Shown in pieces: positions 8,528-25,788 of a stretch of DNA of 26,229 nucleotides. The first letter of the stretch is position 1; every line of letters starts with the position of its first letter. The notes beneath the pieces are model-generated. The model was not told the DNA's origin, searched no databases, and saw only the letters and a program-made list of their open reading frames with translations. Position numbers and translations under genes: made by a program. Source of the DNA: a virus; the IMG/VR virus record IMGVR_UViG_3300032293_000457, positions 1 to 26,229 of that record; one strand, given 5' to 3'.

Positions 8528-8765
8528 GCAAGAAATCTTTGAGGCATGGTGCTTCATCTGCGCCTATTGCGGTAACTCCGCTGATACGTTAGATCACGTC
8601 AAGCCACGCCATAAAGGTGGCACAACAACTACATTTAACCTGATACCAGCCTGCAAACGTTGCAATCGCGGTAAAGGCAGCACTAATTGGTTGGAATGGT
8701 ATTCGCTACAGCAATTTCATACAATCGAACGGCAGCAATTAATTGACAATTGGATCAAGCATTAG
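8466..8765 (+). CDS. HNH endonuclease
   Basis: The 99-residue protein contains a compact HNH domain: C32-x2-C35 and C63-x2-C66 form the structural zinc site, D43-H44 (LDHVKPRHKGG) supplies the first catalytic histidine, N58 (FNLIPAC) the asparagine, and the segment KRCNRGKGSTNW completes the fold. HNH proteins nick or cut DNA. In phages they act as homing nucleases or assist terminase in packaging. This one is far from the terminase genes at the right of the window but could be near them on a circular map. GTG 8466 is the only good start upstream of the domain and lies inside the previous gene. The 3' end overlaps the opposing sigma factor gene by 27 bases. Confidence 0.85.
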   Translation: MDHQIDETQLIPKRSAKNQFRQEIFEAWCFICAYCGNSADTLDHVKPRHKGGTTTTFNLIPACKRCNRGKGSTNWLEWYSLQQFHTIERQQLIDNWIKH

Positions 8766-9623
8766 TCGCAACCTGCTAAGCCCGCTTGCGTGCATTGATT
8801 GCAACTTTGCAATACTATAGCCAGTATTTTCTTGCAATTCAAGCCATGACGTAGGTTTATCATGTAGTCTACACTCAATGATGTAGCGCGTTGTTTGGTC
8901 GATGTATTGACCATAAATCTCAAACATTTTATCAATTGCATCGTTATTTTCTATTGCATCTAACGCACCGGACTGGGTTTCATCAGCAATAAAATCAATA
9001 ATAGCTGATCGATCCAGTTCAGCGCCAGTTGCATCAAGGCTAGATGTTGATTGGTTGCGCTGGATTGCTGTTACCATTTCATCTATTGTTATTCCTAATT
9101 CATCTGCAATCTCCCGCTGGCTTGGTAATCGCCCAAGCTGCTGCATTAGCATAGTTTGAACCTTGACGATTTTAATTATCTTTTCATGCAACGATGATGG
9201 TATGCGGATCATGTTATCGTTATTGGCAATAGCGCGATGTATTGCCTGCTTAATCCACCAATAAGCATAAGTTGTAAACCGATACCCCCTGCTGGGATCA
9301 AACATATCAACAGCACGCGCTAAACCTATATTGCCTTCCTGTATCAAATCCATCAGCATCATTGCTTTGCGTTGCCTGCCATCATATTTCTTGGCGATAT
9401 TAACGACCAGCTTAAGATTTGATTGGATGAACTTATCCCTAGCGCGTCGCCCCTGCCGTTGCTCACGATCAGTGCAATCAGGTTGCTGCATCTTTACTAC
9501 CTGCCGCCCAAGCTGGATTTCCTGCTCAGGCGACAGCAGCGGATAACGCGCAATCTCGCGCAGGTATTCCCTTAGCGAAGAATCATTTGGGGACATGACT
9601 GGCGGTTGGTGATAGGTGGCCAT
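8739..9623 (-). CDS. Sigma-70 family RNA polymerase sigma factor
   Basis: Region 1.2 (SLREYLREIARYPLLSPEQE), region 2 (NLKLVVNIAKKY, MDLIQEGNIGLARAVDMFDP, GYRFTTYAYWWIKQAIHRAI) and region 3 (LPSQREIADELGI) are well conserved and look like cyanobacterial group 1/2 sigma factors. These recruit RNA polymerase and melt the -10 element. Region 4, which reads the -35 box, is present only in weak form (SWLELQENTGYSIAKLQSMH), so promoter choice may differ from the host's. ATG 9623 is chosen; the frame extends to 9665, and ATG 9596 is also possible; none has a clear ribosome site. It is the last gene of the long leftward operon, overlapping dCTP deaminase, so it should appear after the early genes. 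A late-gene switch is the natural inference. Confidence 0.9.
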   Translation of the reverse strand: MATYHQPPVMSPNDSSLREYLREIARYPLLSPEQEIQLGRQVVKMQQPDCTDREQRQGRRARDKFIQSNLKLVVNIAKKYDGRQRKAMMLMDLIQEGNIGLARAVDMFDPSRGYRFTTYAYWWIKQAIHRAIANNDNMIRIPSSLHEKIIKIVKVQTMLMQQLGRLPSQREIADELGITIDEMVTAIQRNQSTSSLDATGAELDRSAIIDFIADETQSGALDAIENNDAIDKMFEIYGQYIDQTTRYIIECRLHDKPTSWLELQENTGYSIAKLQSMHASGLSRLRLMLDPIVN

Positions 9624-10101
9624 TGTAATGACCAACAACCGCATAGCTGGTTGCAGGAATGGCACTCATCTTGAAGAATACCATCTGCCCAATCTTAAGG
9701 CCAGGCCATATCGGCAGTCTTTGCAACTGACGGCTGTTCTTTAGTTCAAGCGTTAAGGTGCTACCATGCCAGCCGGGATCGGCATAGCCAGCGTGCAGGT
9801 TTTCGTAGCCTTCGCGTGCGCGGCTTGACTTAAGGAAAAACAAGCCGGCAATATCTTCCGGCATGTTGAATGATTCCATCGTATCAGCAAGGATAAATTG
9901 CCCCGGCACCAACTCATAAGGTTGATCTTTGCTGCTTTTACTGATGTCAACTGGGATCATGTCATGGCTGGCCGCTGATTCGATCATGATGATATTGCCG
10001 AGTCTCAAGTCAAGACTGGCGGGATTGATCAGCTCTGGCAGATGGTTTTCAACCATGCCGCTTTGGATTAGTTGCGCGATCTCGAAGTCTGAAAGGATCA
10101 T
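9583..10101 (-). CDS. dcd: dCTP deaminase / dUTPase-family enzyme
   Basis: The 172-residue protein has the dCTP deaminase signatures: INPASLDLRLG near residue 27, the SSRAREG loop near 92 that holds phosphate-binding residues, and AGYADPGWHGSTLTLELKN around 104-122 with the expected catalytic glutamate, then IGQMVFF. The family turns dCTP into dUTP (some also make dUMP), feeding dTTP synthesis for phage replication. Length is slightly under the usual 190 residues, the difference being at the C-terminus. It starts at ATG 10101, overlapping the DUF3310 gene stop by four bases, and its 3' end runs into the sigma factor gene. Deaminase versus dUTPase cannot be settled by eye. Confidence 0.87.
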   Translation of the reverse strand: MILSDFEIAQLIQSGMVENHLPELINPASLDLRLGNIIMIESAASHDMIPVDISKSSKDQPYELVPGQFILADTMESFNMPEDIAGLFFLKSSRAREGYENLHAGYADPGWHGSTLTLELKNSRQLQRLPIWPGLKIGQMVFFKMSAIPATSYAVVGHYNGHLSPTASHVPK

Positions 10102-10305: not shown

Positions 10306-10593
10306 TCAGATAACAGTGCGGGTCTGGTAGTTGGGATCCTCAGGATCAGGGCCGAAGCCGCTGGGGGCTGCTGTGAGTGCCTCGGGCAACGGCTCGGCAG
10401 GTTTGACCTTGAGCCATTCGCGCAAGGCTTCACCCGTTGGTGTCTTGGCGGGCCATGCAATGAAGCGCAGCAGCTCCTTGGTGTCGGTGAACAGCATCGA
10501 GACATGTGGCCGCCAGGCCATGTAGCTGGTGCCATTCCACCGGTCATGGCGGCGCTCGATGCGCAGGCCGCCGGCGGTAAAGAGGTCAGGCAC
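10306..10593 (-). CDS. Hypothetical early protein (95 residues)
   Basis: GTG at 10593 begins VPDLFTAGGLRIERRHDRWN and is preceded on the leftward strand by AGAGGTGGGG at a good ribosome-site distance; it overlaps the end of the previous gene by eight bases. The protein has a basic N-terminal half with aromatic residues (SYMAWRPHVSMLF) and a proline-rich C-terminus (EPLPEALTAAP, PDPEDPN). I do not recognise a family. A longer start at 10671 would overlap the previous gene heavily and is not preferred. Tight packing in the operon supports that it is expressed. Confidence 0.6.
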   Translation of the reverse strand: MPDLFTAGGLRIERRHDRWNGTSYMAWRPHVSMLFTDTKELLRFIAWPAKTPTGEALREWLKVKPAEPLPEALTAAPSGFGPDPEDPNYQTRTVI

Positions 10594-10828
10594 TGCCCCA
10601 CCTCTTAAGCGCAGCACGAACAAGGTCGATCTGGCCAAGTCCGGCATCCTCGATCTCACCCGAAAGGTCAAGGATCTGCATGACGGTCGGCGGCTCCGGC
10701 GGTGGGGTGGCTAGGGCGGCATCAGCTCGATGCCGCAGCTCGTAGCACAAACCAGTGCCTTCATATTCGCCTTCGATAACTTCGAGCAGCTCCGCGCACA
10801 ATGCGCGAAAGTCGGGGGCTGGGGTCAT
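10586..10828 (-). CDS. Hypothetical early protein (80 residues)
   Basis: ATG 10828 overlaps the preceding stop (ATGA) and starts MTPAPDFRALCAELLEVIEG. Two helices (residues ~6-38 and ~52-78) are joined by a proline-rich linker (ATPPPEPPT). The N-terminal pattern of a helix with L-C-A-E-L-L and later R-H-R-A-D-x-A-L is common in small proteins of cyanobacterial phages and cyanobacteria. I know no function. It is one of a string of small coupled genes between RlpA-like and DUF3310. Confidence 0.6.
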   Translation of the reverse strand: MTPAPDFRALCAELLEVIEGEYEGTGLCYELRHRADAALATPPPEPPTVMQILDLSGEIEDAGLGQIDLVRAALKRWGSA

Positions 10829-11109
10829 TGGTGGTTCTCCAGTTCGATGGCGATCGCGCGTTGCGCTGCTAAGGCCTGGTTGTAACCCCACTCAGCAGCG
10901 GCATAGAAACTGGCGCAGGTGCCAGGAATGGCTTCCCAATCTGTAATCACATTGAATGGAATCTCAAGTTCCTTGGGTAGATCCGCAACGGCACGAAAGG
11001 CGGCGGCAATGCATTGCTCCTGCCAGTCGTCTTCCAATGGCCCCAGCAGTTCGTAACGGTCGTCAAAAGCCTGGACAATAGCCTGCGCGGCGGGTGATAG
11101 GTCAGTCAT
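10825..11109 (-). CDS. Hypothetical early protein (94 residues) of a cyanobacterial small-protein type
   Basis: The protein starts MTDLSPAAQAIVQAFDDRYE and continues IAAAFRAVADLPKE. Small proteins with LSPAAQAV...AFND and A-x-A-L-R-A-x-A-D are frequent in Synechococcus and its phages, so host-lineage ancestry is likely, but no function is known to me. Sequence after residue 45 (FNVITDWEAIPGTCASFYAA) is not familiar. Both ends overlap neighbours by the ATGA pattern. A HIP1 octamer lies near its 3' end. Confidence 0.65.
   Translation of the reverse strand: MTDLSPAAQAIVQAFDDRYELLGPLEDDWQEQCIAAAFRAVADLPKELEIPFNVITDWEAIPGTCASFYAAAEWGYNQALAAQRAIAIELENHQ
10850..10857. other. HIP1 octamer GCGATCGC
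   Basis: Second of three perfect HIP1 copies seen, inside the 94-residue hypothetical gene. It supports a cyanobacterial host or long residence in one. Confidence 0.8.
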
Positions 11110-11423
11110 CAGTATTCAATCCCCACGCGAGCAATACCATCCAGCGGCACACCAAGCCGATAGGCAGCACCTGCTGACAGGTCGATGCTGTTGCAGTCGC
11201 AGCGGTCAGTGATCGGCACTATCAGCGATCGGCCCCTGTGCGTGACCGTCACCAGCGTGCCGCAACGGATCCATGGGTGGGCTGCGGACAAGCCCCAGTG
11301 GCGATAGGTGCCACCGCAAGCATTAGCGCGTCCGTTGTACCAAGCGTCATAGACCGTGGCCGTGACGGTCCTGGCCTGGGCCGGTGCGGTGAGTATGGCC
11401 AGCAGTAGCAGAAGTGTCCTCAT
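11109..11423 (-). CDS. Exported RlpA-like double-psi beta-barrel protein
   Basis: ATG 11423 (ATGA overlap with the previous stop) gives 104 residues. The first ~18 form a signal peptide: MRTLLLLLAILTAPAQA, with an A-x-A cleavage site. The mature part reads VTATVYDAWYNGRANACGG, then CGTLVTVTHRGRSLIVPITD and RCDCNSIDLSAGAAYRLG. This matches the RlpA/DPBB fold: the T-D-R and I-D-L-S motifs correspond to RlpA N-D-R and I-D-L-S, with the active-site aspartate retained. RlpA proteins are periplasmic glycan-strand cutters. This copy lacks a SPOR domain and has four cysteines that could pair. It lies in the early operon rather than with the lysis genes, so remodelling of the wall or superinfection control are alternatives to lysis. 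Confidence 0.8.
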   Translation of the reverse strand: MRTLLLLLAILTAPAQARTVTATVYDAWYNGRANACGGTYRHWGLSAAHPWIRCGTLVTVTHRGRSLIVPITDRCDCNSIDLSAGAAYRLGVPLDGIARVGIEY

Positions 11424-11683
11424 GCCCACTTCCCCAGCAGGTGGCGGCGGCAGGTGGCGATCGCCTGATGCGCTTGCTTGGCGGTCATCACTGAACCGGT
11501 GTCATCCATCGCCTGGCACACGTCAGCATGGAGCTGCTCGTAGTCGGCATCACGGAAGTTGGGACCGATGTCAGAGCAGAACTCCTGCCACAGTCCGGTG
11601 TAAGTGCTGCATGTACGGCCACTTTTGGCGTACAGCGCATCCATCATGATGGAGCGTTGCTGGTCAAGTTGATGGGGTTTCAT
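11420..11683 (-). CDS. Hypothetical early protein (87 residues)
   Basis: The protein starts MKPHQLDQQRSIMMDALYAK and reads SGRTCSTYTGLWQEFCSDIG, with a predicted helical fold and three cysteines (near residues 25, 36 and 56). The pattern GRT-x-x-x-Y-T-G-L-W-x-x-F recalls small proteins found in several cyanophages, but I cannot name a function. ATG 11683 lies inside the end of the zinc-ribbon gene (20-base overlap), and the 3' end overlaps the RlpA-like start. Confidence 0.6.
   Translation of the reverse strand: MKPHQLDQQRSIMMDALYAKSGRTCSTYTGLWQEFCSDIGPNFRDADYEQLHADVCQAMDDTGSVMTAKQAHQAIATCRRHLLGKWA
11457..11464. other. HIP1 octamer GCGATCGC
   Basis: Third perfect HIP1 copy seen, inside the 87-residue hypothetical gene. 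Other near-matches containing CGATCG are scattered through the window. Confidence 0.8.
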
Positions 11684-11888
11684 TGATGGTGTAGGTACGG
11701 GTGAGCTTCGACCATTGAAGCGTGTGGCCTTCGATTAGCGTTTCTGCTGTTTGCAGCGTGTACCATCGATGGCCGCAATCCAAACAATGACGGCGACGAA
11801 TAAAATCACCGTCAGTTGTTGGCTTGCGCAAGATTACTTCGTTGTATCTTGTTTTACACTTTGGGCATTCCGGGCATCCGATAAGCAT
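11664..11888 (-). CDS. Zinc-ribbon protein resembling the NrdR N-terminal domain
   Basis: The 74-residue protein has C8-x2-C11 and C35-x2-C38 flanking a basic strand (DFIRRRHCLDCGHRWYTLQT). That layout resembles the zinc ribbon of NrdR, the repressor of ribonucleotide reductase genes, whose motif is R-R-R-R-x-C-x-x-C. The ATP-cone domain of NrdR is absent, so it is a stand-alone ribbon, probably DNA-binding. A further cysteine (C5) could be an alternative ligand. The start overlaps the preceding small gene by 55 bases. Role in control of nucleotide or phage genes is inferred. Confidence 0.65.
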   Translation of the reverse strand: MLIGCPECPKCKTRYNEVILRKPTTDGDFIRRRHCLDCGHRWYTLQTAETLIEGHTLQWSKLTRTYTINETPST

Positions 11889-11992
11889 AAGACGTATTTA
11901 GCGAATGCCGTATGCGTCATTATTGCATGGGCGCCAGGGTTGAACGGATAGGATTGCTTCCACCATTCAATAAAAATAGATTCGTAATCCAT
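11834..11992 (-). CDS. Small protein of 52 residues after SSB
   Basis: ATG 11992 overlaps the SSB stop (TAATG) and encodes MDYESIFIEWWKQSYPFNPG, then AHAIMTHTAFAKYVL. The aromatic-rich N-terminus followed by P-G-x-H-A-x-x-T-H-x-A-F/W resembles a recurring class of very small cyanophage proteins. No function is known to me. It ends 55 bases into the next gene in another frame. The strong N-terminal pattern and coupling make it credible despite its size. Confidence 0.6.
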   Translation of the reverse strand: MDYESIFIEWWKQSYPFNPGAHAIMTHTAFAKYVLCLSDARNAQSVKQDTTK

Positions 11993-15073: not shown

Positions 15074-15273
15074 AGCTGCTCGACTACTGGCGGCAGCTTA
15101 CTGCTGCCCCATTGCAGCCCCATGGCATCAGCAATGCCTTGATAGGTGCGGCTGCGATCCTTCCAGCGATTAGGCCCAGGTGGCATCCGATGCACCTTGG
15201 CTTCACGGCCTTCCACCACCTGCGTTGGTTTGAGTGATGGCAGATTCTTGAGCCAAAGGCAAGTGGCCTTCAC
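15037..15273 (-). CDS. Cytosine-methyltransferase-like protein, C-terminal fragment
   Basis: Residues KATCLWLKNLPSLKPTQVVE and RMPPGPNRWKDRSRTYQGIA are the C-terminal half of the family to which the preceding gene (15270-15650) belongs. GTG 15273 overlaps the TGA of that gene (GTGA), so it could be made by re-initiation. However, conserved residues continue upstream in this frame (QQIIQPWQFGHGEVKATC) to a run of eight Gs at 15312-15319 (C8 on the coding strand). One more C, or a -1 ribosomal slip, would join both parts into a ~204-residue protein of normal layout. Either a frameshift (real or from sequencing) or a deliberate split. Confidence 0.7.
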   Translation of the reverse strand: MKATCLWLKNLPSLKPTQVVEGREAKVHRMPPGPNRWKDRSRTYQGIADAMGLQWGSSKLPPVVEQLCLSSTSNSTFA

Positions 15274-15650
15274 TTCACCATGGCCAAATTGCCAAGGCTG
15301 AATAATCTGTTGGGGGGGGTAATGGCTGAGCTGATGACGCTGACGGGATTTTCAATGCACCAACGCTCAATTGGTGCTGCCATGAGGAGTCGAACAAAAT
15401 CTAAAGCTTCGGCTTGTTCGCGTTGCTTGCGATGGAAGTGCCTGCTTCCGCTGACGGCAAGGTGAGTGCAGGGCGGGTGCGCGATCATTAGATCCCAGCC
15501 ATTAGCCAGCAGATCCTCCACAGGTGCCTGATAGTGCCAGCGCGGGTCGGATTCGCATTCCAGCAGGTCGCAACTCCATGCGTCATGTCCGTGACGGCGA
15601 AAGGCATCGCGTACTCTGCCGCTGTATTCGCAAGCAACCAGCACACGCAC
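15270..15650 (-). CDS. Cytosine-methyltransferase-like protein, N-terminal fragment (frameshifted)
   Basis: GTG 15650 begins MRVLVACEYSGRVRDAFRRH, a Rossmann-type nucleotide or SAM-binding start. It goes on to SCDLLECESDPRWHYQ, LMIAHPPCTHLAVSG with the P-P-C catalytic-type motif, and ENPVSVISS with the E-N-P motif. These are the hallmarks of phage C5-cytosine methyltransferase-like proteins. After ISSAITPP the frame leaves the family consensus at a C8 run and stops 14 codons later, while the family sequence continues in the next frame. The target site cannot be told. Its start overlaps the stop of the DEAH helicase by one base. If intact it would mark phage DNA against restriction. Confidence 0.78.
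   Translation of the reverse strand: MRVLVACEYSGRVRDAFRRHGHDAWSCDLLECESDPRWHYQAPVEDLLANGWDLMIAHPPCTHLAVSGSRHFHRKQREQAEALDFVRLLMAAPIERWCIENPVSVISSAITPPNRLFSLGNLAMVK
15312..15319 (-). other. C8 homopolymer at the methyltransferase frame break
   Basis: Eight consecutive G on the plus strand (C on the coding strand). Family-like sequence is in one frame before the run and in the -1 frame after it. Nine Cs would restore a single reading frame of family-like length. Confidence 0.85.
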
Positions 15651-17008
15651 TAGCCCACCCTCCTAGCTTGCCGTGCAGCCATAATATGCTTTGCCCAGCC
15701 TGGTTTGTAGCCGCGTTGCCGTTCGAGGCGCAGCAGATCCTCCATGCTGCGGGCGCCGCCTACCTCAGCGCGTTTACGGCGCAGCTCCGCGGTGATCTCC
15801 ACCAACTCACCGCTGGCCTCCTCTAGCTCCCGTGCCTCAGTGGTGAACTCATGGCCGCATTCGCCGCACTGCTTTGCGGTGGTTGCATTTGCAGCAAAGC
15901 ACCTTGGGCACATGCGCACGCTTGGTGCTGCATCGCGTTTGCGTTTATCGCGGCCTTCTAGCGTCCAGTTGCGTTCCTCAGTCGGTAGGCCGTGACGTTC
16001 TACGTTGCCGACGTGATCGAGAATAATTGCCGCCGAGCCATCAGCCTTTGGCCTGAGGCACCGGCCGACCTGCTGTAGGTACATCGTCACTGATGCTGTA
16101 GGTCGCAGCAGGATTGCTGCATTGATGCTCGGTACATCAACGCCTTCGCTCAGCATTTCGCAGTAGGTCACTACCTTGATGATCCCCTTGCCAAGGTCGC
16201 TAAAGATCTGTTCTTGGTCATCCTCACCGCAACCGCCAGTGATCGCCCGTGCCGAAATGCCTGCTGCATTGAACCGCGCCGCCATCGCATCAGCAAACTC
16301 AACGCTTACGCATGACACCAATGCCGTACCTGGCGCCACGATCTTCAAGTAGTGCTCAACTGCATCGCCATGAATCTTGGCTTGCTCTAATGCTGCTGCC
16401 GCCTCGCGCATGTCAAACTCACCGCGCACCTTACGCAGCTTGCTTGCATCCATTGTGGTAGGCGGGCAAAAGATCCGCGCCTTAGCCAAGAAGCCTTCAT
16501 CCGTCAACCACTGCGGCGTAGGCCCGATCACCAAGTCATCAAACACCTCGCCTAGGCCGCGGCCATCAAGACGTTGCGGGCTGGCGGTCTTGCCGATCAG
16601 GTACGCATCAGGCCAGTGACCTACCACCTGCCCCCACTGGTTATCGCGGGTTAGGTGATGCGCTTCGTCGATGATGATCAGATCCGGCGGCTGCAACTTA
16701 TCTAGCCGCCGAACGACCGTCTGCACGCTGCCTACGGCAACACCATGGCCACGTTGGTGCCGGCCTGGCACAATCACGTCATGCTCAATGCCCCAACTGT
16801 CTACCGTACGGCTTAGCTGGTTGATCAGCCGCCGACGATGCGCCAGCAGCAGCACACGGCGACCTTTAGCAGCCGCTGCATGGATGATCGCAGCGATCAC
16901 AACAGACTTACCGGCACCTGTCGGCATTACGGCGCACACCCTACGGTGACGCCGCATTGACTGGCGGATCTGGTCTAAAAGCTGGGTTTGGTATGGGCGG
17001 AGGTTCAT
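15650..17008 (-). CDS. DEAH-box superfamily 2 helicase with C-terminal zinc ribbon
   Basis: The 452-residue protein has superfamily 2 motifs in order: LRPYQ at residues 3-7, Walker A PTGAGKS at 29-35, LLLAHRRRLINQL (Ia), DEAH at 114-117, GKTASP (III), a C-terminal RecA fold with VVTYCEMLSEGVDVPS, and motif VI QQVGRCLRP. A zinc ribbon follows (CPRC...CGECG, near residue 370) and then a charged helical tail. Such Res/UvrB-like helicases are common in phage replication operons and may unwind branched DNA or open the origin. It is flanked by two methyltransferase-type genes. The stop overlaps the next GTG. A restriction-enzyme R subunit is an alternative, but no nuclease domain is seen. Confidence 0.9.
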   Translation of the reverse strand: MNLRPYQTQLLDQIRQSMRRHRRVCAVMPTGAGKSVVIAAIIHAAAAKGRRVLLLAHRRRLINQLSRTVDSWGIEHDVIVPGRHQRGHGVAVGSVQTVVRRLDKLQPPDLIIIDEAHHLTRDNQWGQVVGHWPDAYLIGKTASPQRLDGRGLGEVFDDLVIGPTPQWLTDEGFLAKARIFCPPTTMDASKLRKVRGEFDMREAAAALEQAKIHGDAVEHYLKIVAPGTALVSCVSVEFADAMAARFNAAGISARAITGGCGEDDQEQIFSDLGKGIIKVVTYCEMLSEGVDVPSINAAILLRPTASVTMYLQQVGRCLRPKADGSAAIILDHVGNVERHGLPTEERNWTLEGRDKRKRDAAPSVRMCPRCFAANATTAKQCGECGHEFTTEARELEEASGELVEITAELRRKRAEVGGARSMEDLLRLERQRGYKPGWAKHIMAARQARRVG

Positions 17009-17973
17009 CAGTCCATACCCTCAACATCAAACAATTCAGTCTGATCAGGCGCTCGGGTGTCTTCTACTGCTATTTCCATATTTTTTATCGCTTGCTTGTA
17101 ATACGATTCCTTCAACTCAATACCAATACCACGGCGGCCTAATTGCACCGCACCATAAACCTCACTGCCAACGCCCATGAATGGAGTCAACACCGTTTCG
17201 CCAGGGTTGGAGCGCAAGCATATGGCACGGTCGATCACATCAAGTTGTAACGGATGCACATGCTTTTCATCGTCAGGATCTTTGCCATCGCGAAAAGGAA
17301 GCACCCGGCCCATATTGATGTCGTCCCAAATGGATGACGCATACCGCCGCCAAATCCAATGGCTGAAACGGTTTTCTGTTTGCTTACCAGTCCACCCTTT
17401 ATATTTGTGCAATTCGCTTGGGATCGGGCATTCGCCAGCGTAATGATCTAGCCCAGTAGGGTGTGCAACTGGAATAGTATTTTCTCCACTGCGCCTAAAA
17501 ATCAACAAGTAATCAGCAGATGCCACACCAGCGTAGGCGCCATCATCAACAATTGTTTTATGGGCTAAGCTCTTTACCATTGTCCGGTTGCGAACCCATA
17601 GAGGCTCTTTCCATATCGTATGACGTGCTACAAAATGCCAGCCATGTTGCTGATGTAATTCAATAATCTTGCCCGGCAAATCAATCAATGAATCCTTGCC
17701 GCTGTTGCCGCTTGAAATGTCGGTACAATGAACAGCAGTCAACCGGCCTGGTAGTGTTAACCGATGCAAGTCTTTTACAACAAAGCCATAATGATTCATA
17801 AACTGATCGTAGTCTTTGCAGTTGCTGATGTCACGCTCATTTGAGCTGTAGACATACAATCCAGCAAAAGGCGGTGAGTAGATTGAGAAATGCACGGAAG
17901 CTGTAGGCAGGCTTTGCATTACCTCAATGCAGTCGCCGTTGTAAATTGCGTAGCGGTCGGTGATCATAGCCAT
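17008..17973 (-). CDS. DNA methyltransferase, beta-class (N4-cytosine or N6-adenine type)
   Basis: Motif IV comes first (YSPPF, residues 32-36) and the SAM-binding motif I last (TPFMGVGSEVYGAV, ~263-276), followed by G-I-E-L (motif II). This order defines beta-class amino-methyltransferases of the N6_N4_Mtase family; S-P-P-F is more usual for N4-cytosine enzymes but N6-adenine is not excluded. The region between (residues ~140-250) is the expected target-recognition part. It is a lone methylase with no cognate endonuclease nearby, which suggests protection of phage DNA or gene control. ATG 17973 is chosen because GAGGTT lies at a good distance upstream; ATG 17967 would overlap the SNF2-like gene stop (ATGA). 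Confidence 0.92.
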   Translation of the reverse strand: MAMITDRYAIYNGDCIEVMQSLPTASVHFSIYSPPFAGLYVYSSNERDISNCKDYDQFMNHYGFVVKDLHRLTLPGRLTAVHCTDISSGNSGKDSLIDLPGKIIELHQQHGWHFVARHTIWKEPLWVRNRTMVKSLAHKTIVDDGAYAGVASADYLLIFRRSGENTIPVAHPTGLDHYAGECPIPSELHKYKGWTGKQTENRFSHWIWRRYASSIWDDINMGRVLPFRDGKDPDDEKHVHPLQLDVIDRAICLRSNPGETVLTPFMGVGSEVYGAVQLGRRGIGIELKESYYKQAIKNMEIAVEDTRAPDQTELFDVEGMD

Positions 17974-19424: not shown

Positions 19425-19568
19425 ATGGCGCCGACGCGATCGACCAGTATCACCATCCCGCCAGACCTCAGGCGTTGGCTTGAGTCTCAGGTGAGATACG
19501 GCTACGGCATTGGTGCCGTGATCCGTGACCATTTACTGCGTGCCATGGAATCTGATGCAAAGCGTTGA
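19425..19568 (+). CDS. Ribbon-helix-helix DNA-binding protein (47 residues)
   Basis: ATG 19425, preceded by GGAG four bases upstream, encodes MAPTRSTSITIPPDLRRWLE and SQVRYGYGIGAVIRDHLLRA. The short strand STSITIP followed by two helices is the RHH (CopG/Arc) fold, which binds DNA as a dimer of strand pairs. It is the first gene of the rightward operon and lies 29 bases from the perfect dyad at 19380-19396, so self-regulation and control of both divergent operons are plausible. A longer frame from 19317 would run through the promoter region and is rejected. It overlaps the primase start by 14 bases. Confidence 0.75.
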   Translation: MAPTRSTSITIPPDLRRWLESQVRYGYGIGAVIRDHLLRAMESDAKR

Positions 19569-21921
19569 CTTCACAGAGGCGCAGCGGTTCCTTTCCCTAC
19601 TAGGCAAACCCCCCGGCACCATCAGGCTGCGTGCCTTCTACCATGCCAAGAACCCCAAGAAAGCAGGTGATGCAGGCCGTAAAGGTGGCCCATCACGGTC
19701 AGCGATCGAGCAATGGCAGTCCGATGGCCGCGGCGTTTATGTCGTCATCAACGACGGCGGCGACACTGATGCCACCATCACCGCCTGCCGTGCGTTCTTT
19801 GTTGAATGGGATGACCGCCCCCGTGAATGGCAGCTAACCGCATGGCAAGATCTCGGGCTGCCCGAGCCATCGATCCAAGTTGATACCGGCGGCAAGTCGA
19901 TACATACCTACTGGCTCCTGACTGATCTGATCACACCATCCCATTGGGCGATCGTCCAGCAGCGGTTGATTGATTTCTGCGATTCCGATCGCACCATCAA
20001 GAATCCATCTCGCGTCATGCGGTTGCCAGGTACTTACCACGCCAACGGCGCTGGTGAGCTCGGCGCCTTGTGCTCAGTCGTCACCGCATCAGGCATCCGC
20101 TACTCAATTGCCGACATCGAAGCCTGCCTGCCAGATGAAGAGCATTACCACCATCAGCAGCAGGCAGCGCGTCATACCGAACACGCGCCGCGCACCATCG
20201 ACGACATCCGCGATGCGCTTGATGCCATACCATCAGCCATCCCAAACCAAAAGCAATATCCGTTTTACCGCAACCTGCTGTGGAGCCTAATCAAGGTCGT
20301 CGGTGATCCAGATCAAGCCGTTGCAATGATGCAGCGGCATAGCCCGCTATTTGCCGAGGCGCCGCAGGTAGCACGCTCAGGTGGTGACCAAATCACCGAA
20401 GGAACCTTCTGGTATTGGGCGAAGCATCACGGTTGGCGGCCACCGCAACTGGCGCCGCGGCCTGCTGCTGTTGCTGTCAGTGGTGGTGTAGGCGTGGAGG
20501 TGGAAGCCCTCAACTGCCGGCTGGTCAGCAAGACCGATACCGAATGGCTTGACCTGACCCTGCGGCACCTGTTCAAATACCCAGCCGATCGCTGGATCGA
20601 AGTCGAAGGCGTGCTCCATCATTGGTGCGGCACGCATTACGAAGCACGCACCGACCAAGAACTTGCGCCATTAGTGGCCGCCTTCCTGTCGCAGTTATTT
20701 GTTGAAGACCAGCACGGCAACCGCTCCCATCCATGGCGCCGGCCTAGATACGTCGATGAAGCCCTCTCCTGGATACGCCGCAACCTATCGCCTGTTGACG
20801 TCAACCCTCGCAACGCCATCAACTGCCGCAATGGCATCGTCTCATGGGAATGGAGTGGCAGGGACATCCATACCAGATTCGAGCCGCACTCACCAGACCT
20901 GTTTTTTACCTATATCACAGAGTACGACTATGACCCTGAAGCAAATCCCGAACACATGTGGCGGCTGCTAGAGGCCGTAGACAGCACTGACCTTGACACG
21001 ATCCAACGCATCCTTGGTAGTGGTCTTGACCTTGCCCATTACCGCGCCACACGTGGTAGACCTCGCGCCGTTCTGATGATCGGTGAAGGCAGCAATGGTA
21101 AGGACACCATCCGTACCGCATTGCGCGATACACTCGGCGCCCGTAATTTTACGTCCTGTTCATTAGCAGACTTCCGCCAATACGATCAAGGCCGTAAGTT
21201 TCCTATCGCACCGTTGCGCGGTGCATCCGTTAACTGGTCGAGTGAAAATTCACAGTTTGTTCACATCGACAACCTGCAATCACTGAAGGCCGCCATATCA
21301 GGAGAAGAGTTATCTTACGAACTTAAAGGCGTGCAGGAGTCGCAATTTGTACCGTCCTCATTGTTTGTTTTTAACCTCAACAAAGACCCATCGCTATCGG
21401 GTGAACAGGTAGCAATCGAGACCCGTTTTCATGTATTTAAGTTTCGTAAAACCTTCCTGCCAAAACCTACAAAACCAACCCATCTTCAAGCTGACCCACG
21501 TTTAAAAGATGATCCTGATTTCATCCGGCGTTACATATGCCCTGCCTTCCTGAATTGGTTGCTGGAAGGTATGCAACTTGCCGTTGGTTACGGCATCGAC
21601 TACAGCACCGGCCATGCCGCCATGGATGCCGTACGCCGCTCCAGTTGCCACCTATGGGAGTTCTGTGATGCCGCTGAGCTGCAATGGGCTGGCGATGGTC
21701 ACAGCGTGCCGCTCAAGGCCGTATGGGAGCGGCTCCAGGGGTGGTACGAGGCCGAAGGCTATCTAGTGGATGGTCGTTGGGTGCTGTCCCCAGTCAATGA
21801 TCCACCGGTCAAGGCGGCTCGGTTGCTGGTCGGCAGGCTCCAATCCCTATGGCCTGAACTCACCGTTCAGATGGACCCGATCCTGCGCGTAAAGCGGCTC
21901 TCAGGGCTGTCCATGGCCTGA
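19555..21921 (+). CDS. Fused primase-helicase (RepB/AEP primase + D5/P4-type helicase)
   Basis: ATG 19555 gives 788 residues. The N-terminal ~210 residues carry archaeo-eukaryotic-type primase motifs: F-F-V-E84-W-D86-D87 (metal-binding), GGKSIH117TYW (s-x-H), and KNPSRVMRLPGTYH. A helical linker follows (residues ~215-300), then a D5_N-like part and a superfamily 3 helicase: Walker A G-E-G-S-N-G-K-D-T at 510-518, a Walker B/C segment (SSLFVFNLNKDPSLSG) and an arginine-finger region (AIETRFHVFKFRK). Such proteins both unwind the origin and lay down primers. The stop lies one base before the first of six iterons, which is the usual gene-then-origin order in plasmids and phages of this kind. A GTG at 19525 is an alternative start. 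Confidence 0.9.
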   Translation: MQSVDFTEAQRFLSLLGKPPGTIRLRAFYHAKNPKKAGDAGRKGGPSRSAIEQWQSDGRGVYVVINDGGDTDATITACRAFFVEWDDRPREWQLTAWQDLGLPEPSIQVDTGGKSIHTYWLLTDLITPSHWAIVQQRLIDFCDSDRTIKNPSRVMRLPGTYHANGAGELGALCSVVTASGIRYSIADIEACLPDEEHYHHQQQAARHTEHAPRTIDDIRDALDAIPSAIPNQKQYPFYRNLLWSLIKVVGDPDQAVAMMQRHSPLFAEAPQVARSGGDQITEGTFWYWAKHHGWRPPQLAPRPAAVAVSGGVGVEVEALNCRLVSKTDTEWLDLTLRHLFKYPADRWIEVEGVLHHWCGTHYEARTDQELAPLVAAFLSQLFVEDQHGNRSHPWRRPRYVDEALSWIRRNLSPVDVNPRNAINCRNGIVSWEWSGRDIHTRFEPHSPDLFFTYITEYDYDPEANPEHMWRLLEAVDSTDLDTIQRILGSGLDLAHYRATRGRPRAVLMIGEGSNGKDTIRTALRDTLGARNFTSCSLADFRQYDQGRKFPIAPLRGASVNWSSENSQFVHIDNLQSLKAAISGEELSYELKGVQESQFVPSSLFVFNLNKDPSLSGEQVAIETRFHVFKFRKTFLPKPTKPTHLQADPRLKDDPDFIRRYICPAFLNWLLEGMQLAVGYGIDYSTGHAAMDAVRRSSCHLWEFCDAAELQWAGDGHSVPLKAVWERLQGWYEAEGYLVDGRWVLSPVNDPPVKAARLLVGRLQSLWPELTVQMDPILRVKRLSGLSMA

Positions 21922-21922
21922 C

Positions 21923-21976
21923 CGAAGGCAAATCGAAGGCAAATCGAAGGCAAATGCAGCCAAATCGAAGGCAAAA
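21923..21976 (+). repeat. Four direct 11-bp iterons CGAAGGCAAAT/A
   Basis: Copies at 21923-21933, 21934-21944 and 21945-21955 are perfect and head to tail; a fourth (ending in A) is at 21966-21976, with a degenerate 10-base unit (GCAGCCAAAT) between. The 11-base spacing places each copy on the same face of the helix. The period is not a multiple of three and the array starts just after the primase stop, so it is not coding. Confidence 0.92.
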
Positions 21977-22005
21977 AACATCCCAAACCCCTTGCTATTA
22001 CTCAT

Positions 22006-22049
22006 TTTCTCTTTTTTCTCTCAAGTCAAGTCAAGTAAGAAAAGAGAAA
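22006..22049. other. 10-bp inverted repeat in the origin, with TCAAG x3 in the loop
   Basis: TTTCTCTTTT (22006-22015) and AAAAGAGAAA (22040-22049) are perfect inverted copies; the 24-base loop holds three tandem TCAAG units (22021-22035). The sequence is strand-biased, pyrimidine-rich on one side and purine-rich on the other, which suits strand opening. An outer 7-bp dyad (21988-21994 with 22056-22062) surrounds it. Confidence 0.75.
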
Positions 22050-22101
22050 CGGTATCAAGGGGATACATAATGCATATAAGGAAGAGTAGGGCATTTGGGT
22101 G

Positions 22102-22153
22102 TTTTGCCTTCGTTTGAGTCATACCAAGGGATCTGGGCTGCAATTTGCCTTCG
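22102..22153 (-). repeat. Two inverted iterons
   Basis: TTTTGCCTTCG at 22102-22112 is the exact reverse complement of the fourth left iteron, and ATTTGCCTTCG at 22143-22153 is the exact reverse complement of the first three. The six copies therefore flank the A+T-rich centre in opposite orientations. Confidence 0.9.
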
Positions 22154-22169
22154 GGGTAGATGTATTTGC

Positions 22170-22514
22170 ATGTTGGGACTCGATGAGATACACTGGTATG
22201 ACTGGCACGCATCCAAATTGGTTGAGATCAAAGTGAGACTGGAGAGACAGGATCTGGACCTGATCGACCGGCAGGCGGCAGCGGCAGGTACCAACCGCTC
22301 GGCATTGATCCGGCAGCGGGCAATTGTTGCGGATTATGAACAGGGGCTTTATGGGTTGACACCAACCGCATACCATGCCCTTGTCTCTGATGCCGCTGCC
22401 TTCATGGGTGGTGTTGTCCCGAGGCAGCATGTTGAGTTATTAACCGCGTATGTCATCACCAGACTTGATTCGCATCACAGCCAGGCAGTCGCCCGTCATC
22501 AACCGTCTTCATGA
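22170..22514 (+). CDS. RHH-domain protein next to the origin
   Basis: From ATG 22170 the frame gives 114 residues; the recognisable part starts at about residue 18: VEIKVRLERQDLDLIDRQAA, then GTNRSALIRQRAI, a ribbon-helix-helix fold (strand, helix, turn, helix), and a C-terminal helical domain (YHALVSDAAAFM, ELLTAYVITRLD). The start is uncertain: the frame extends to 22095 through both inverted iterons, and TTG 22218 or GTG 22233 would begin right at the RHH strand. RHH proteins bind repeated sites cooperatively, and CopG-type ones govern replication in plasmids. Adjacency to the iterons suggests an origin-binding or copy-control role, which is inference. Confidence 0.65.
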   Translation: MLGLDEIHWYDWHASKLVEIKVRLERQDLDLIDRQAAAAGTNRSALIRQRAIVADYEQGLYGLTPTAYHALVSDAAAFMGGVVPRQHVELLTAYVITRLDSHHSQAVARHQPSS

Positions 22515-22659
22515 CGCCATGACCTTGGCGCTGGCAACCGCTAACGCCATCCGTGATAACGCACAGGACGAAGGCATCCCCATTCCCGCCGAACTGGTCG
22601 CCAGCTTCGACGCCGATTACAGCGCCATCATCACCGCCCTAACCGAAGCCGCATCATGA
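22450..22659 (+). CDS. Hypothetical protein (69 residues)
   Basis: The frame starts MSSPDLIRITARQSPVINRL and continues as a helical protein (DAMTLALATANAIRDNAQDE, SFDADYSAIITALTEAAS). It overlaps the RHH gene by 65 bases in another frame and its stop overlaps the clamp ATG (ATGA). I do not recognise a family. The coupling to dnaN suggests it is expressed with the replication genes, perhaps as an accessory protein. Confidence 0.6.
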   Translation: MSSPDLIRITARQSPVINRLHDAMTLALATANAIRDNAQDEGIPIPAELVASFDADYSAIITALTEAAS

Positions 22660-23717
22660 AATTCATCACCGCTCAGTCCGATCTCAACCACGCGCTTAAG
22701 GTCGTCGGTCGCGCTGTATCCAATGGCAAGACCCATCCGATTCTTGCCAATGTCCTGATCGACGCCATGGCTGATGGCCATCTGCGCGTTTCAGCCTTCG
22801 ACCTAGAGCTCGGCATCTCAACCACAACTCTCGCGTCAGTTGAAACCGCAGGATCCATCGCCGTCCCATACCGCGTCCTATCTGAGATCGTTGGTCGCTT
22901 AGACAACGATGCCGCCTTGCTCTTGACCGCTGATGGCACTGCCGTCAGCCTGTCAAGCGCAACAGGCTCCTACCAGCTCGCTGGGCATGATGCAGACGAC
23001 TTCCCCGCCCTTCCGGTCGTCGATACCGCTGGAGCGGTCTCCGTGGCCCTTGTGGAGCCCATGCGTGCCGCTTTGGCTGCTGCATCCACCGACGAGGCCA
23101 AAGGCGTCATCTGCGGCCTGCACGTTGCCGTAGAAGCCGGCACCATGCGCATCGAGGCAACCGACGGTCATCGCATGGTCACCCGCACCCAGCCAGCCGA
23201 TGGTGCCATCGACATCATCCTGCCGACACGTAGCATCTCCGCTATCCAGCGTCTTGATGCTCCTACGGTCACGCTTGCCGCATCCAGCAGCCAGGCGATC
23301 ATCATTGCCGATGGCGTCACCATCACCTCACGTACCCTCGCAGGTGCGTACCCAGCCGTAGCAAAGCTGGTGCCTGACACCTTCAAGCACACCATCACCG
23401 CTGATCGCATCGCACTGATCGCAGCCCTAGAGCGTATTGCCATCATTAACTCCGATGTGGTAAGGCTTTGGGTCAAAAACAAAACCCTATCGATCGTCGC
23501 TTATTCAGAAGCCAGCAGCGGTGCTGAAAAACTTACGTGCTCCGGCTCATTCCCTGATGCTGGCTTCAATGTCCGTTACCTGGTCGATGGCCTCAAGCAT
23601 CTAGACGGCGCCAAGGTTCAAATCCAAGCCAACACGCCTACAACACCTGTCATCATGTCGCCAGTAGGTATCGACGGTCAGCTTTACCTTGTCATGCCCG
23701 TACAGGTTCGTGTATGA
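22656..23717 (+). CDS. dnaN: DNA polymerase III beta subunit (sliding clamp)
   Basis: All three clamp domains can be followed over 353 residues: MKFITAQSDLNHALKVVGRA with the T-H-P-I-L-A-N motif, FDLELGISTTTLASVETAGS, YQLAGHDADDFPALP closing domain 1, EATDGHRMVTR in domain 2, and the C-terminal YLVMPVQVR (M-P-x-x-x motif) that faces polymerase. The wording of domain 1 (T-H-P-I-L-A-N, D-L-x-L-G-I, I-V-x-R-L) is close to cyanobacterial DnaN, pointing to capture from a host. The ring tethers DNA polymerase III to the template. No phage DNA polymerase is seen in this window, so the clamp probably recruits the host's. It is coupled by ATGA overlaps on both sides. Confidence 0.95.
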   Translation: MKFITAQSDLNHALKVVGRAVSNGKTHPILANVLIDAMADGHLRVSAFDLELGISTTTLASVETAGSIAVPYRVLSEIVGRLDNDAALLLTADGTAVSLSSATGSYQLAGHDADDFPALPVVDTAGAVSVALVEPMRAALAAASTDEAKGVICGLHVAVEAGTMRIEATDGHRMVTRTQPADGAIDIILPTRSISAIQRLDAPTVTLAASSSQAIIIADGVTITSRTLAGAYPAVAKLVPDTFKHTITADRIALIAALERIAIINSDVVRLWVKNKTLSIVAYSEASSGAEKLTCSGSFPDAGFNVRYLVDGLKHLDGAKVQIQANTPTTPVIMSPVGIDGQLYLVMPVQVRV

Positions 23718-24070
23718 TTCCAACGGTCACAACCACATACATGGCACTCACAGGCTCTGAACTGCTCGCACAAGTCAAAATCCTTGGCGAAGTATCTGAA
23801 CCCGAACTGGCAGCAGCAACCGGGTACGTCACCGCAGAAGGCAAACCTAAAATTGCCGCACTGCGTTCTGGACTTCTTGAGGCCTATGGCCTTAAAGTCG
23901 TCAAAGCACCGAAATCTGGCCGTGCCCTCTCCTACGAAGGCACCATCCAGAAAAACGGTAACGCCATCCTGTCCGGTGGTTACACCAGTCAGCTTGGCCT
24001 AGCACCTGGCGATAAGTTCGCTGTTGAGGTCGATGCCGAGGAAGGCATCGTGGCAATCAGTAAACTCTGA
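23714..24070 (+). CDS. cyAbrB-family transcription regulator
   Basis: The protein starts LTGSELLAQVKILGEVSEPE, then ATGYVTAEGKPKIAALRSGL and a C-terminal strand-rich part YEGTIQKNGNAILSGGYTSQ, LGLAPGDKFAVEVD. This is the layout of cyAbrB, a DNA-binding family almost confined to cyanobacteria in which an N-terminal helical region precedes an AbrB-like swapped-hairpin domain (G-x-x-Y-x-x-x-L-G-L-x-P-G-D). Host cyAbrB proteins regulate nitrogen, carbon and redox genes. ATG 23714 overlaps the clamp stop; ATG 23741 is an alternative. It is the last gene before a terminator. It could control the phage's own operon or retune host genes. Confidence 0.85.
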   Translation: MIPTVTTTYMALTGSELLAQVKILGEVSEPELAAATGYVTAEGKPKIAALRSGLLEAYGLKVVKAPKSGRALSYEGTIQKNGNAILSGGYTSQLGLAPGDKFAVEVDAEEGIVAISKL

Positions 24071-24118: not shown

Positions 24119-24442
24119 ATGGCAGCACCCCGAGGCACCAAACAGGAAACGATTGAACGCGCAAATCAGCTTGCGCGGATCATCGCTAATGGTGGCCGTA
24201 GATCAGACTGCATTCAATATGCTTCGGAACACTGGGGGGTTGGTGCGCGTAGTTGCGATCAATACTTAGTTGTTGCGCGTGAAATGCTCAAAGCAGATTG
24301 GGACTTAGAACGCCCGCAAATGGTGGCTGATTTGCTTAGTCAATGTGCAACGCTACAGCAAGAAGCTAGAGCCGCTGGCCAGTTGCATATTGCATTGGGT
24401 GCGATCAATACTGCTGCAAAGCTAGCGCAGATTTGTTCGTGA
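24119..24442 (+). CDS. terS: Terminase small subunit
   Basis: The 107-residue protein is helical: an N-terminal helix-turn-helix (TIERANQLARIIANGGRRSD, then EHWGVGARSCDQYLVVAR) typical of DNA-recognising small terminases, and a C-terminal oligomerising helix (LLSQCATLQQEARAAGQLHI). It binds the packaging site on concatemeric DNA and hands it to the large subunit. Position directly before terL with a GTGA overlap supports the call; sequence alone is weak, as usual for this family. The packaging site often lies within or near this gene. The terminator just upstream means it likely has a separate promoter, which I cannot identify. Confidence 0.8.
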   Translation: MAAPRGTKQETIERANQLARIIANGGRRSDCIQYASEHWGVGARSCDQYLVVAREMLKADWDLERPQMVADLLSQCATLQQEARAAGQLHIALGAINTAAKLAQICS

Positions 24443-25788
24443 GTATTCTTGCTACTGCAAGGGCAGGCAATGTATTACAGCAGTTTGGCCACAGTGATGA
24501 AAGCATCGACGTAAGTAGCCTGTTGGCACGTATCCGCGAGGATTTGCATCCTGGCCAGCTTGCTTTCGTTGATGACCAAACATCAAGCATACTTGGCGTT
24601 AGTGCTGGTTATGGCGCAGGTAAAACACGCGCCTTATGCGCTAAGGCCGTCCATCTTGCTGCTGTTAATCAGGGGTTTATTGGCGTTGTAATGGAGCCTA
24701 CAGGCCCATTGATTCGTGATATTTGGCAAAGCGACTTTGATGATTTCCTAGAAGCATACGACATACCATATACGTTTAGGGCATCGCCATTACCTGAATA
24801 CATGCTGCATCTGCCTGGCGGTGATACTAAGATCCTTTGCCGCAGCTTTGAGAATTGGCAGAGGATTATTGGCATCAATGCTGCATGGATACTTACTGAT
24901 GAAATAGACACCGTTGCGCCTGCAATTGCAAACAAAGCATTTCCAAAGATCCTTGGTCGTTTACGTGCCGGTAACATACGCCAGTTTGCTGCTGCATCAA
25001 CACCAGAAGGTTTTAGGTGGATGTGGCAAACATTTGCCAGTGAAGATGGCAAAGGCCGCAATGATCGGCGGCTTATCAGGATGCGCACGCAAGATAATCC
25101 ATACCTGCCGGCAGACTTCATCGAACGCCTTGAAGCAAACTATGACCCGCAACTACTCAAGGCATATCTTGATGGTGAATTTGTCAACCTCACCACAGGC
25201 CAAGTATATGATCGCTTCGATCGCGCAAAGCATGTAACTGCAATCGAGGCGCCATCATATCGTGAACCGCTCCGTATCGGCGTTGACTTTAACGTAGGCA
25301 ATATGTCTGCCGTGATCGCTTACCGTAATGGCAAGACGCTACATGTATTTGATGAGATCAGCGGTGCGCATGATACTGATGCCTTAGCTCAAACGATCAA
25401 GGCACGTTACCCCGACCATCGTATTTACATGTACCCAGACGCAAGCGGCGGCAATCGTAGTACCAACGCAAGCCAAACCGATATTGCAATCCTAGAGTCC
25501 TACGGCATGTCGAACCAATCACCACGCGCTAACCCGCCCGTGCGTGATCGTGTGGCAGCAATGCAAGCATTGATGGAAAATGGTAAAGGTGAGATCCGTC
25601 TACACATTGACCACAGTTGCCGTAAGTTGATCGAATGCCTGGAGCTTCAAAGCTACAGCGAACGCGGTGAACCCGATAAAGATGGCGGTTATGACCACAT
25701 GAACGACGCTATCGGATACTTGGTATGGCGTGAGTTCAACCCGCTGCACGCTGGGGCTGGACGGGGCACTGGCGTTAGGGTATACTGA
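24439..25788 (+). CDS. terL: Terminase large subunit (ATPase/nuclease)
   Basis: GTG 24439 overlaps the small-subunit stop (GTGA) and gives 449 residues. The ATPase part has the Walker A-like S-A-G-Y-G-A-G-K-T (about residues 55-63) and Walker B AWILTDEID. The nuclease part has the RNase H-like acidic residues in IGVDFNVGNMSAV, MYPDASG and GGYDHMNDAIGYLV. This enzyme pumps DNA into the capsid and makes the cuts at each end. Length and domain order are usual. Whether it packs by headful or cohesive ends cannot be told from the sequence. It is followed with a TGATG overlap by a small acidic protein and the portal gene. Confidence 0.95.
   Translation: MSILATARAGNVLQQFGHSDESIDVSSLLARIREDLHPGQLAFVDDQTSSILGVSAGYGAGKTRALCAKAVHLAAVNQGFIGVVMEPTGPLIRDIWQSDFDDFLEAYDIPYTFRASPLPEYMLHLPGGDTKILCRSFENWQRIIGINAAWILTDEIDTVAPAIANKAFPKILGRLRAGNIRQFAAASTPEGFRWMWQTFASEDGKGRNDRRLIRMRTQDNPYLPADFIERLEANYDPQLLKAYLDGEFVNLTTGQVYDRFDRAKHVTAIEAPSYREPLRIGVDFNVGNMSAVIAYRNGKTLHVFDEISGAHDTDALAQTIKARYPDHRIYMYPDASGGNRSTNASQTDIAILESYGMSNQSPRANPPVRDRVAAMQALMENGKGEIRLHIDHSCRKLIECLELQSYSERGEPDKDGGYDHMNDAIGYLVWREFNPLHAGAGRGTGVRVY

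Follow-up and report, generated by a model that had tools for sequence, protein, structure and literature searches.

The virus record IMGVR_UViG_3300032293_000457 carries, directly behind a primase-helicase gene, a 231-bp segment (21923-22153) in which short perfect repeats surround an A+T-rich stretch. The question is what these repeats serve: replication, a neighboring DNA-binding protein, or DNA packaging. The window analyzed is the whole IMG/VR entry, 26,229 bp in length. The virus is probably cyanobacterial; a picocyanobacterial host is suggested by its cyAbrB gene and by relatives in Synechococcus and Cyanobium genomes. We give a probability of about 0.83 to the reading that this segment acts in cis as the phage's replication origin and is read by the initiator encoded just upstream, hereinafter designated Rep.

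The repeat CGAAGGCAAA(T/A) occurs in four direct and two inverted copies, all perfect, as the first-pass annotation had described (Table 1). The first copy starts 2 bp past the stop codon of the primase-helicase gene, with one base between, so the array indeed abuts that gene. A search of the rest of the 26,229-bp record for the 11-mer, which had been proposed as a check, found no further exact copy, and six copies of one 10-mer within 250 bp compare with a maximum of two to three in 100 shuffles. Copy starts in the window are spaced by 11, 11, 21, 136, and 41 bp. The strand-biased, A+T-rich core is also confirmed: A+T content is 67% at 21990-22050 compared with 46% window-wide, with pyrimidines prevailing on the left and purines on the right.

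Table 1. Coordinates of the features discussed. Positions are those of the window, except in the last line.
Feature	Position	Strand	Description
Initiator gene rep	19525..21921	+	AEP PrimPol at residues ~1-205, middle region, D5_N/SF3 helicase at ~369-690, C-terminal winged helix at 691-798
Winged-helix domain, residues 691-798	21595..21918	+	proposed iteron reader; structure model and structural matches
Left array	21923..21976	+	direct iterons 21923-21933, 21934-21944, 21945-21955, 21966-21976
Core	21977..22101	.	62% A+T; 10-bp dyad 22006-22015/22040-22049; GTATC-N5-GATAC element 22052-22066
Right array	22102..22153	-	inverted iterons 22102-22112, 22143-22153
Ribbon-helix-helix (RHH) gene	22173..22514	+	Pfam RHH_1 3e-5; listed ORF start 22095 probably too early, ATG near 22173 likelier
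Sliding-clamp-like gene (DNA polymerase III beta)	22656..23717	+	Pfam 8e-21
TerL	24433-25788		terminase large-subunit gene, ~2.3 kb past the array
Swapped module region	L087 4840-7560		Zn-ribbon primase and CGTAACA iterons on a related phage backbone

The finer elements of the core are less constant. Both dyads pointed out in the first-pass annotation exist in the window, namely the inner 10-bp dyad TTTCTCTTTT/AAAAGAGAAA and the outer dyad CCCCTTG/CAAGGGG, but as shared features the dyads and the threefold TCAAG fail, since they are not conserved in relatives. Among close relatives, L007, L009, and L088 have a broken outer dyad, and in some loci of group B, e.g., L028, the inner dyad is weak. 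The window core folds better than its shuffles (z -2.7), while the L028 core does not (z +0.9). A stem-loop was therefore rejected as the conserved core. Likewise, the 11-base period that had been taken to place the copies on one face of the DNA is seen in the window spacings of 11 and 11, but strict phasing is not kept, group B having 11 and 13. The dyads, the TCAAG repeats, and the strict phasing are details of particular lineages.

At the GTATC-N5-GATAC site, the window reads GTATCAAGGGGATAC and relatives read TAACRGGGTGAWAC or TGTAACGGGGTGAACA, with much of group B having TGTAACGGGGTGAACA or a word near it. The core word GTAACAGGGTGATAC is common to the window-clade relative L007 and the distant cyanophage S-2L.

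No DnaA box (TTWTNCACA, one mismatch allowed) was found at 21923-22153, which speaks only against DnaA-dependent plasmid types. On the + strand, no sigma-70 promoter or terminator scored above shuffles, and searches for Rfam families and tRNAs gave no match. The window encodes a phage sigma-70 factor with regions 1.2, 2, and 3 (8739-9665, - strand), so late or origin-adjacent promoters may not resemble host promoters. Cumulative GC skew, calculated for six 40-kb records, has no consistent turning point at the array; the skew switch that had been proposed as support for an origin is thus missing.

The initiator is a PrimPol-SF3 protein. Its helicase part is of the SF3 (D5-like) type, with Pfam matches above cut-offs to D5_N (2e-7) and DUF5906 (1e-7), and profile comparison matches Rep to the solved AEP domain of S-2L PrimPol (6zp9, 1e-38) and to 7ola (0.0014), an entry titled just 'DNA primase' that is a SaPI primase-helicase. 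Rep_3/RepA initiators of theta plasmids have two winged helices and no helicase, and Rep is not of that type.

The SF3 part of a full-length AlphaFold model had pLDDT below 50, and that model was not used. The C-terminal domain (108 residues) was modeled alone from 37 relatives and is a confident winged helix, with pLDDT of about 90 over the last 90 residues. In VIA-align, the best matches of the model are the RFX DNA-binding domain (8zjr, Z 9.7) and the origin-binding domain of phage P4 (1ka8), with C-terminal parts of AsfvPrimPol structures coming after these two. The P4 domain aligns with Z 7.1 and rmsd 2.6 over 75 residues, a moderate score below the level that excludes a common arrangement. 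Because the best Foldseek E-value of the model is just 0.07, the resemblance of the modeled domain to the P4 origin-binding domain is suggestive and not proof. We propose CGAAGGCAAAT as the candidate target word of this winged helix.

Between repeat types A and B, the C-terminal domain is 46% identical, the SF3 domain 87%, and the region 206-330 47%. Because region 206-330 diverges equally, the iteron reader cannot be identified from the divergence of the C-terminal domain. We also looked for a clean co-varying specificity residue. Within the winged helix just residue 760 separates the types (P in groups A, C, D, and E; R in B) and, with region 206-330 equally divergent, we make no such claim. 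We likewise claim no domain shuffling, as the tree of the C-terminal domain is not in conflict with the rest of Rep.

We compared 80 viral loci that have this primase-helicase gene. Nearly all of them have facing arrays and an A+T-rich core behind the rep stop, with an iteron word specific to the lineage: CGAAGGC, CGGACGC, CGGAGGC, and a weak CGGACCC. Specifically, CGAAGGCAAA is the word of the window clade and also of the distant clade L075/L079-L081, CGGACGCAA is the word in 61 loci and CGGAGGCAA that in L076, while the weak CGGACCC occurs in L083/L084. Within one phage all iteron copies change in concert, and repeats are degenerate in group E. When repeat types are placed on the Rep clades, four changes are needed, which is the minimum, compared with 13.4 for shuffled labels. 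CGAAGGC marks two separate Rep clades, so this word is ancestral or has arisen twice.

Left copies mostly point in one direction and right copies in the opposite one, ++++-- in the window clade and +-++++----- (facing pair first) in many others. All window-clade relatives keep the left array, with three or four copies beginning one base after the rep stop, and both inverted copies of the right array. In nearly all other loci of groups A-D the array lies at most about 13 bp from the rep stop. In group B (e.g., L019 and L028), all 60 loci examined carry an extra inverted iteron core, TTGCGTCC, within rep some 70 bp ahead of its stop codon, in the sequence that encodes the end of the winged helix (K-L-A-S).

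The window clade has 62 copies in arrays and none elsewhere in the 135 kb of sequence compared, and in larger relatives' records (up to 46 kb) all exact 11-mer matches fall in one cluster. This distribution bears on the possibility that the repeats are true Rep sites with a main role in copy-number control or exclusion, as for P4 crr or handcuffing iterons, with strand opening elsewhere. Control by pairing is possible with bipartite arrays, P4 has its ori and crr at separate sites, and both the unconserved core dyads and the GC skew without an origin signal would fit such a role. With one cluster per record, however, there is no second candidate with the same word in the sequences examined, and the stretch between the arrays is A+T-rich; we consider this explanation improbable.

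The origin reading gains from phages in which the module has been exchanged. In L087, L089, L094, and L097, which are closely related to the window phage, an unrelated Zn-ribbon primase of about 820 aa (BLASTP E 0.16) and CGTAACA arrays with a similar facing layout take the place of everything between the start of rep and the RHH gene. Just upstream of rep, three of the four have about 78% DNA identity to the window, and downstream of window position 22251 identity is 92-94% in L087 and L089 and 78-88% in L094 and L097. The right crossover lies at about 22251, inside the RHH gene just past its DNA-reading strand. The clamp-like gene is kept across the swap: whichever module is present, its identity is 91-98% in most relatives, with lower values of 73-74% in L095 and L097. 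Because the repeats swap with the initiator, it is the initiator that they accompany, rather than the clamp, the RHH body, or the terminase. In the Zn-ribbon primase family as a whole, arrays above shuffles lie behind the rep stop in 41 of 44 loci, at about 0-290 bp and mostly within 260 bp. The first-pass annotation had reasoned that relatives keeping the genes while losing the repeats would count against an origin; the relatives without these repeats are also without this primase-helicase, which favors an origin.

The array is indeed followed by an RHH gene, as had been noted, and its product is a second candidate to read the repeats. CopG and ParR recognize short direct repeats that precede their own genes, and 11-bp repeats on both sides of the promoter region are typical of parC of plasmid R1. 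By analogy, the repeats, which lie upstream of the RHH gene with two inverted iterons just before its probable start, could serve regulation as its operator, or partition as a parC-like centromere, instead of being an origin. The RHH protein does not follow the repeats, however. Its DNA-facing strand, E-x-K-x-R, is unchanged with CGAAGGC, CGGACGC, and CGTAACA repeats, and conversely varies (EIKIN, EIKLH) among phages that have the same CGGACGC word. In 23 of the 80 initiator loci no RHH was detected, two of them on contigs that stop too soon for a verdict, and full arrays are present in most of the 23; a comparison of the main downstream reading frames of six of the 23 with Pfam gave no RHH. 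One such locus, L044, passes from the array straight to the clamp reading frame with no RHH gene between (10503-11921). The swap crossover parts the repeats from the RHH body. Among partition genes, a ParA-type gene is absent from 10 records, and a search of ten records for ParM gave nothing convincing, with no control match in that search. A site of the RHH protein is thus an unlikely identity for the array. Because the DNA-facing strand does not track the repeats and 23 of 80 loci have no detected RHH, the RHH protein is an unlikely reader, and the primase-helicase is the best candidate; the RHH protein is probably a regulator outside the origin module.

Other genes nearby and elsewhere in the window complete the setting. 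The clamp-like gene is followed by a cyAbrB-type regulator (22656-24070), an operon beside the putative origin. Two DNA methyltransferase genes (15270-15650 and 17008-17973) lie beside helicase genes at 15270-17973 on the - strand. No convincing integrase was found in ten records, the one weak match, in G010, being below threshold.

Similar arrangements are present in cyanobacterial plasmids. Among complete plasmids the closest relative is pAL20115e of Cyanobacterium aponinum (4,586 bp), which codes for a Rep of this type (open frame of 989 codons), a CopG-type RHH protein, and one small protein. Its iterons, GACTCAC, are arranged as six direct and then seven inverted copies, starting 6 bp past the end of the winged-helix match, inside the reading-frame tail. 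In Synechocystis salina, the array starts 10 bp past the end of that match. The plasmid pAL20115e suggests that Rep and origin may suffice for autonomous replication. The same plasmid bears on the idea that the segment is a packaging (pac/cos) site, which would suit its place about 2.3 kb before TerL and the repeated sites of some cos/pac regions and is nonetheless very improbable, because the array follows the primase gene and not the terminase, the terminase-less 4.6-kb plasmid has a like arrangement behind the same Rep type, and L089, with a near-identical terminase region and a swapped primase, has different repeats.

Among 49 cyanobacterial genome loci, about 20 have arrays above shuffles some 2.4-3.4 kb past the AEP start, each lineage with its own word. 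A stricter test, limited to 350 bp before and 650 bp after the first in-frame stop, found arrays in 13 of 34 cyanobacterial loci, a count lowered because Nostoc-type arrays lie further inside the reading frame. Many Nostoc-type loci have arrays inside the rep frame, or none seen. In L108 (2056-2399), L136, L138, and L148, which are plasmid and Nostoc-type relatives, the array lies within the 3' portion of the rep reading frame, which means that its DNA sites are translated as well.

Taken with the arrays behind rep, the concerted change of their letters, and their joint exchange with the initiator, the plasmid arrangement lends good support to the iteron-flanked origin of the first-pass annotation. 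Its further description, iteron-plasmid-like, holds in that cyanobacterial plasmids have like arrays, but is to be narrowed to SaPI/P4-type replicons, with a self-loading helicase and iterons behind its own gene. On the sequence evidence, the locus is best read as a self-contained initiator-origin module that would work like SaPI and P4 replicons with a lineage-specific iteron code.

In SaPI and SCCmec Cch2, the C-terminal domain recognizes iterons directly downstream of the helicase gene, and SaPI Rep is thought to act as two hexamers (PMC7581432). The locus shares with SaPI Rep and Cch2 a D5/SF3-type or other self-loading helicase, a C-terminal domain that in Rep is putatively DNA-binding, and iterons directly downstream of the helicase gene, here flanking an A+T-rich core. 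It differs from SaPI in that an AEP PrimPol is fused, the arrays are facing and lineage-specific, and the relatives are cyanobacterial, not staphylococcal. The P4 alpha protein unites a primase, an SF3 helicase, and a winged-helix origin-binding domain at its C terminus; Rep likewise joins a primase and an SF3 helicase to a winged helix, here modeled and matching 1ka8. The P4 primase is of the DnaG/Toprim type, not AEP, and P4 crr is a separate site, whereas here just one array is seen.

The Sulfolobus plasmid pRN1 has an essential element with a stem-loop in its core within 166 bp downstream of the PrimPol-SF3 gene ORF904, its operon holds the copy-control protein ORF56, and no origin iterons were found by the authors in pRN1 or BIP-1 (PMC4234260). 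As in pRN1 ORF904 and Bordetella phage BIP-1/BPP-1, AEP, SF3, and winged helix are here joined in one protein with a cis element just downstream. Unlike in those systems, the core lies between perfect iterons, which are better conserved than the stem-loop, no large conserved stem-loop being found as an essential element.

Cyanophage S-2L (L111) has a homologous AEP domain (42% identity over 282 residues), and about 360 bp of non-coding DNA follow its PrimPol. This gap contains GGCACA/TGTGCC repeats as well as the core word AGTAACAGGGTGATAC, which recurs in L007 (GGTAACAGGGTGATAC); the S-2L repeats are imperfect and were read by eye, not picked by the shuffle-tested scan. The S-2L paper describes no origin. 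CyRepA1 and CyRepA2 are likewise cyanobacterial plasmid Rep proteins with primase-like and helicase domains, in their case DUF3854 and DEXDc, and have a required sequence upstream of rep and no iterons described (PMC10079941).

Based on the SaPI/Cch2 work (PMC7581432) and the downstream cis element of pRN1 (PMC4234260), we propose a mechanism for initiation at this segment. Winged helices of several Rep subunits would bind the iterons of the facing left and right arrays. SF3 domains would then assemble a ring at each of the two arrays and melt the A+T-rich core with its dyads. The helicases would run outward in opposite directions, while the N-terminal PrimPol would lay primers on the exposed strands, and the phage clamp and a polymerase (that of the host, or PrimPol itself as proposed for S-2L) would extend them. 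We thus infer Rep as the binder, melting and priming at this site, and bidirectional replication. If each iteron is read by its own Rep alone, initiator and origin would travel as one exchangeable module with a private code.

A self-loading helicase with downstream iterons is known already. As far as the literature found shows, what is new is an initiator fused to AEP and accompanied by facing arrays, a word private to each lineage, exchange of the whole module with an unrelated initiator, and sharing between phages and plasmids. A literature search on cyanophage iterons found no relevant paper, and one on phage-encoded resistance found none. More broadly, one replicon design may extend across cyanobacterial phages and plasmids, comprising a PrimPol-SF3-winged-helix or Zn-ribbon initiator, facing arrays at the 3' end of its gene, and a private word that co-evolves with the winged helix, the module being swapped whole and setting coexistence or exclusion in one cell. 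We advance this generalization tentatively, at slightly less than even odds.

If the origin reading is true, it pins down the origin of a widespread group of probable cyanophages, for which none is described in the papers found, and links these probable cyanophages to cyanobacterial plasmids. It would also provide a natural initiator-iteron series, with at least three PrimPol spellings and an unrelated-initiator swap, for decoding the DNA-reading code of PrimPol-SF3 proteins, and it points to minireplicons ready for use in cyanobacterial genetics and to origin titration as a simple way of testing phage exclusion.
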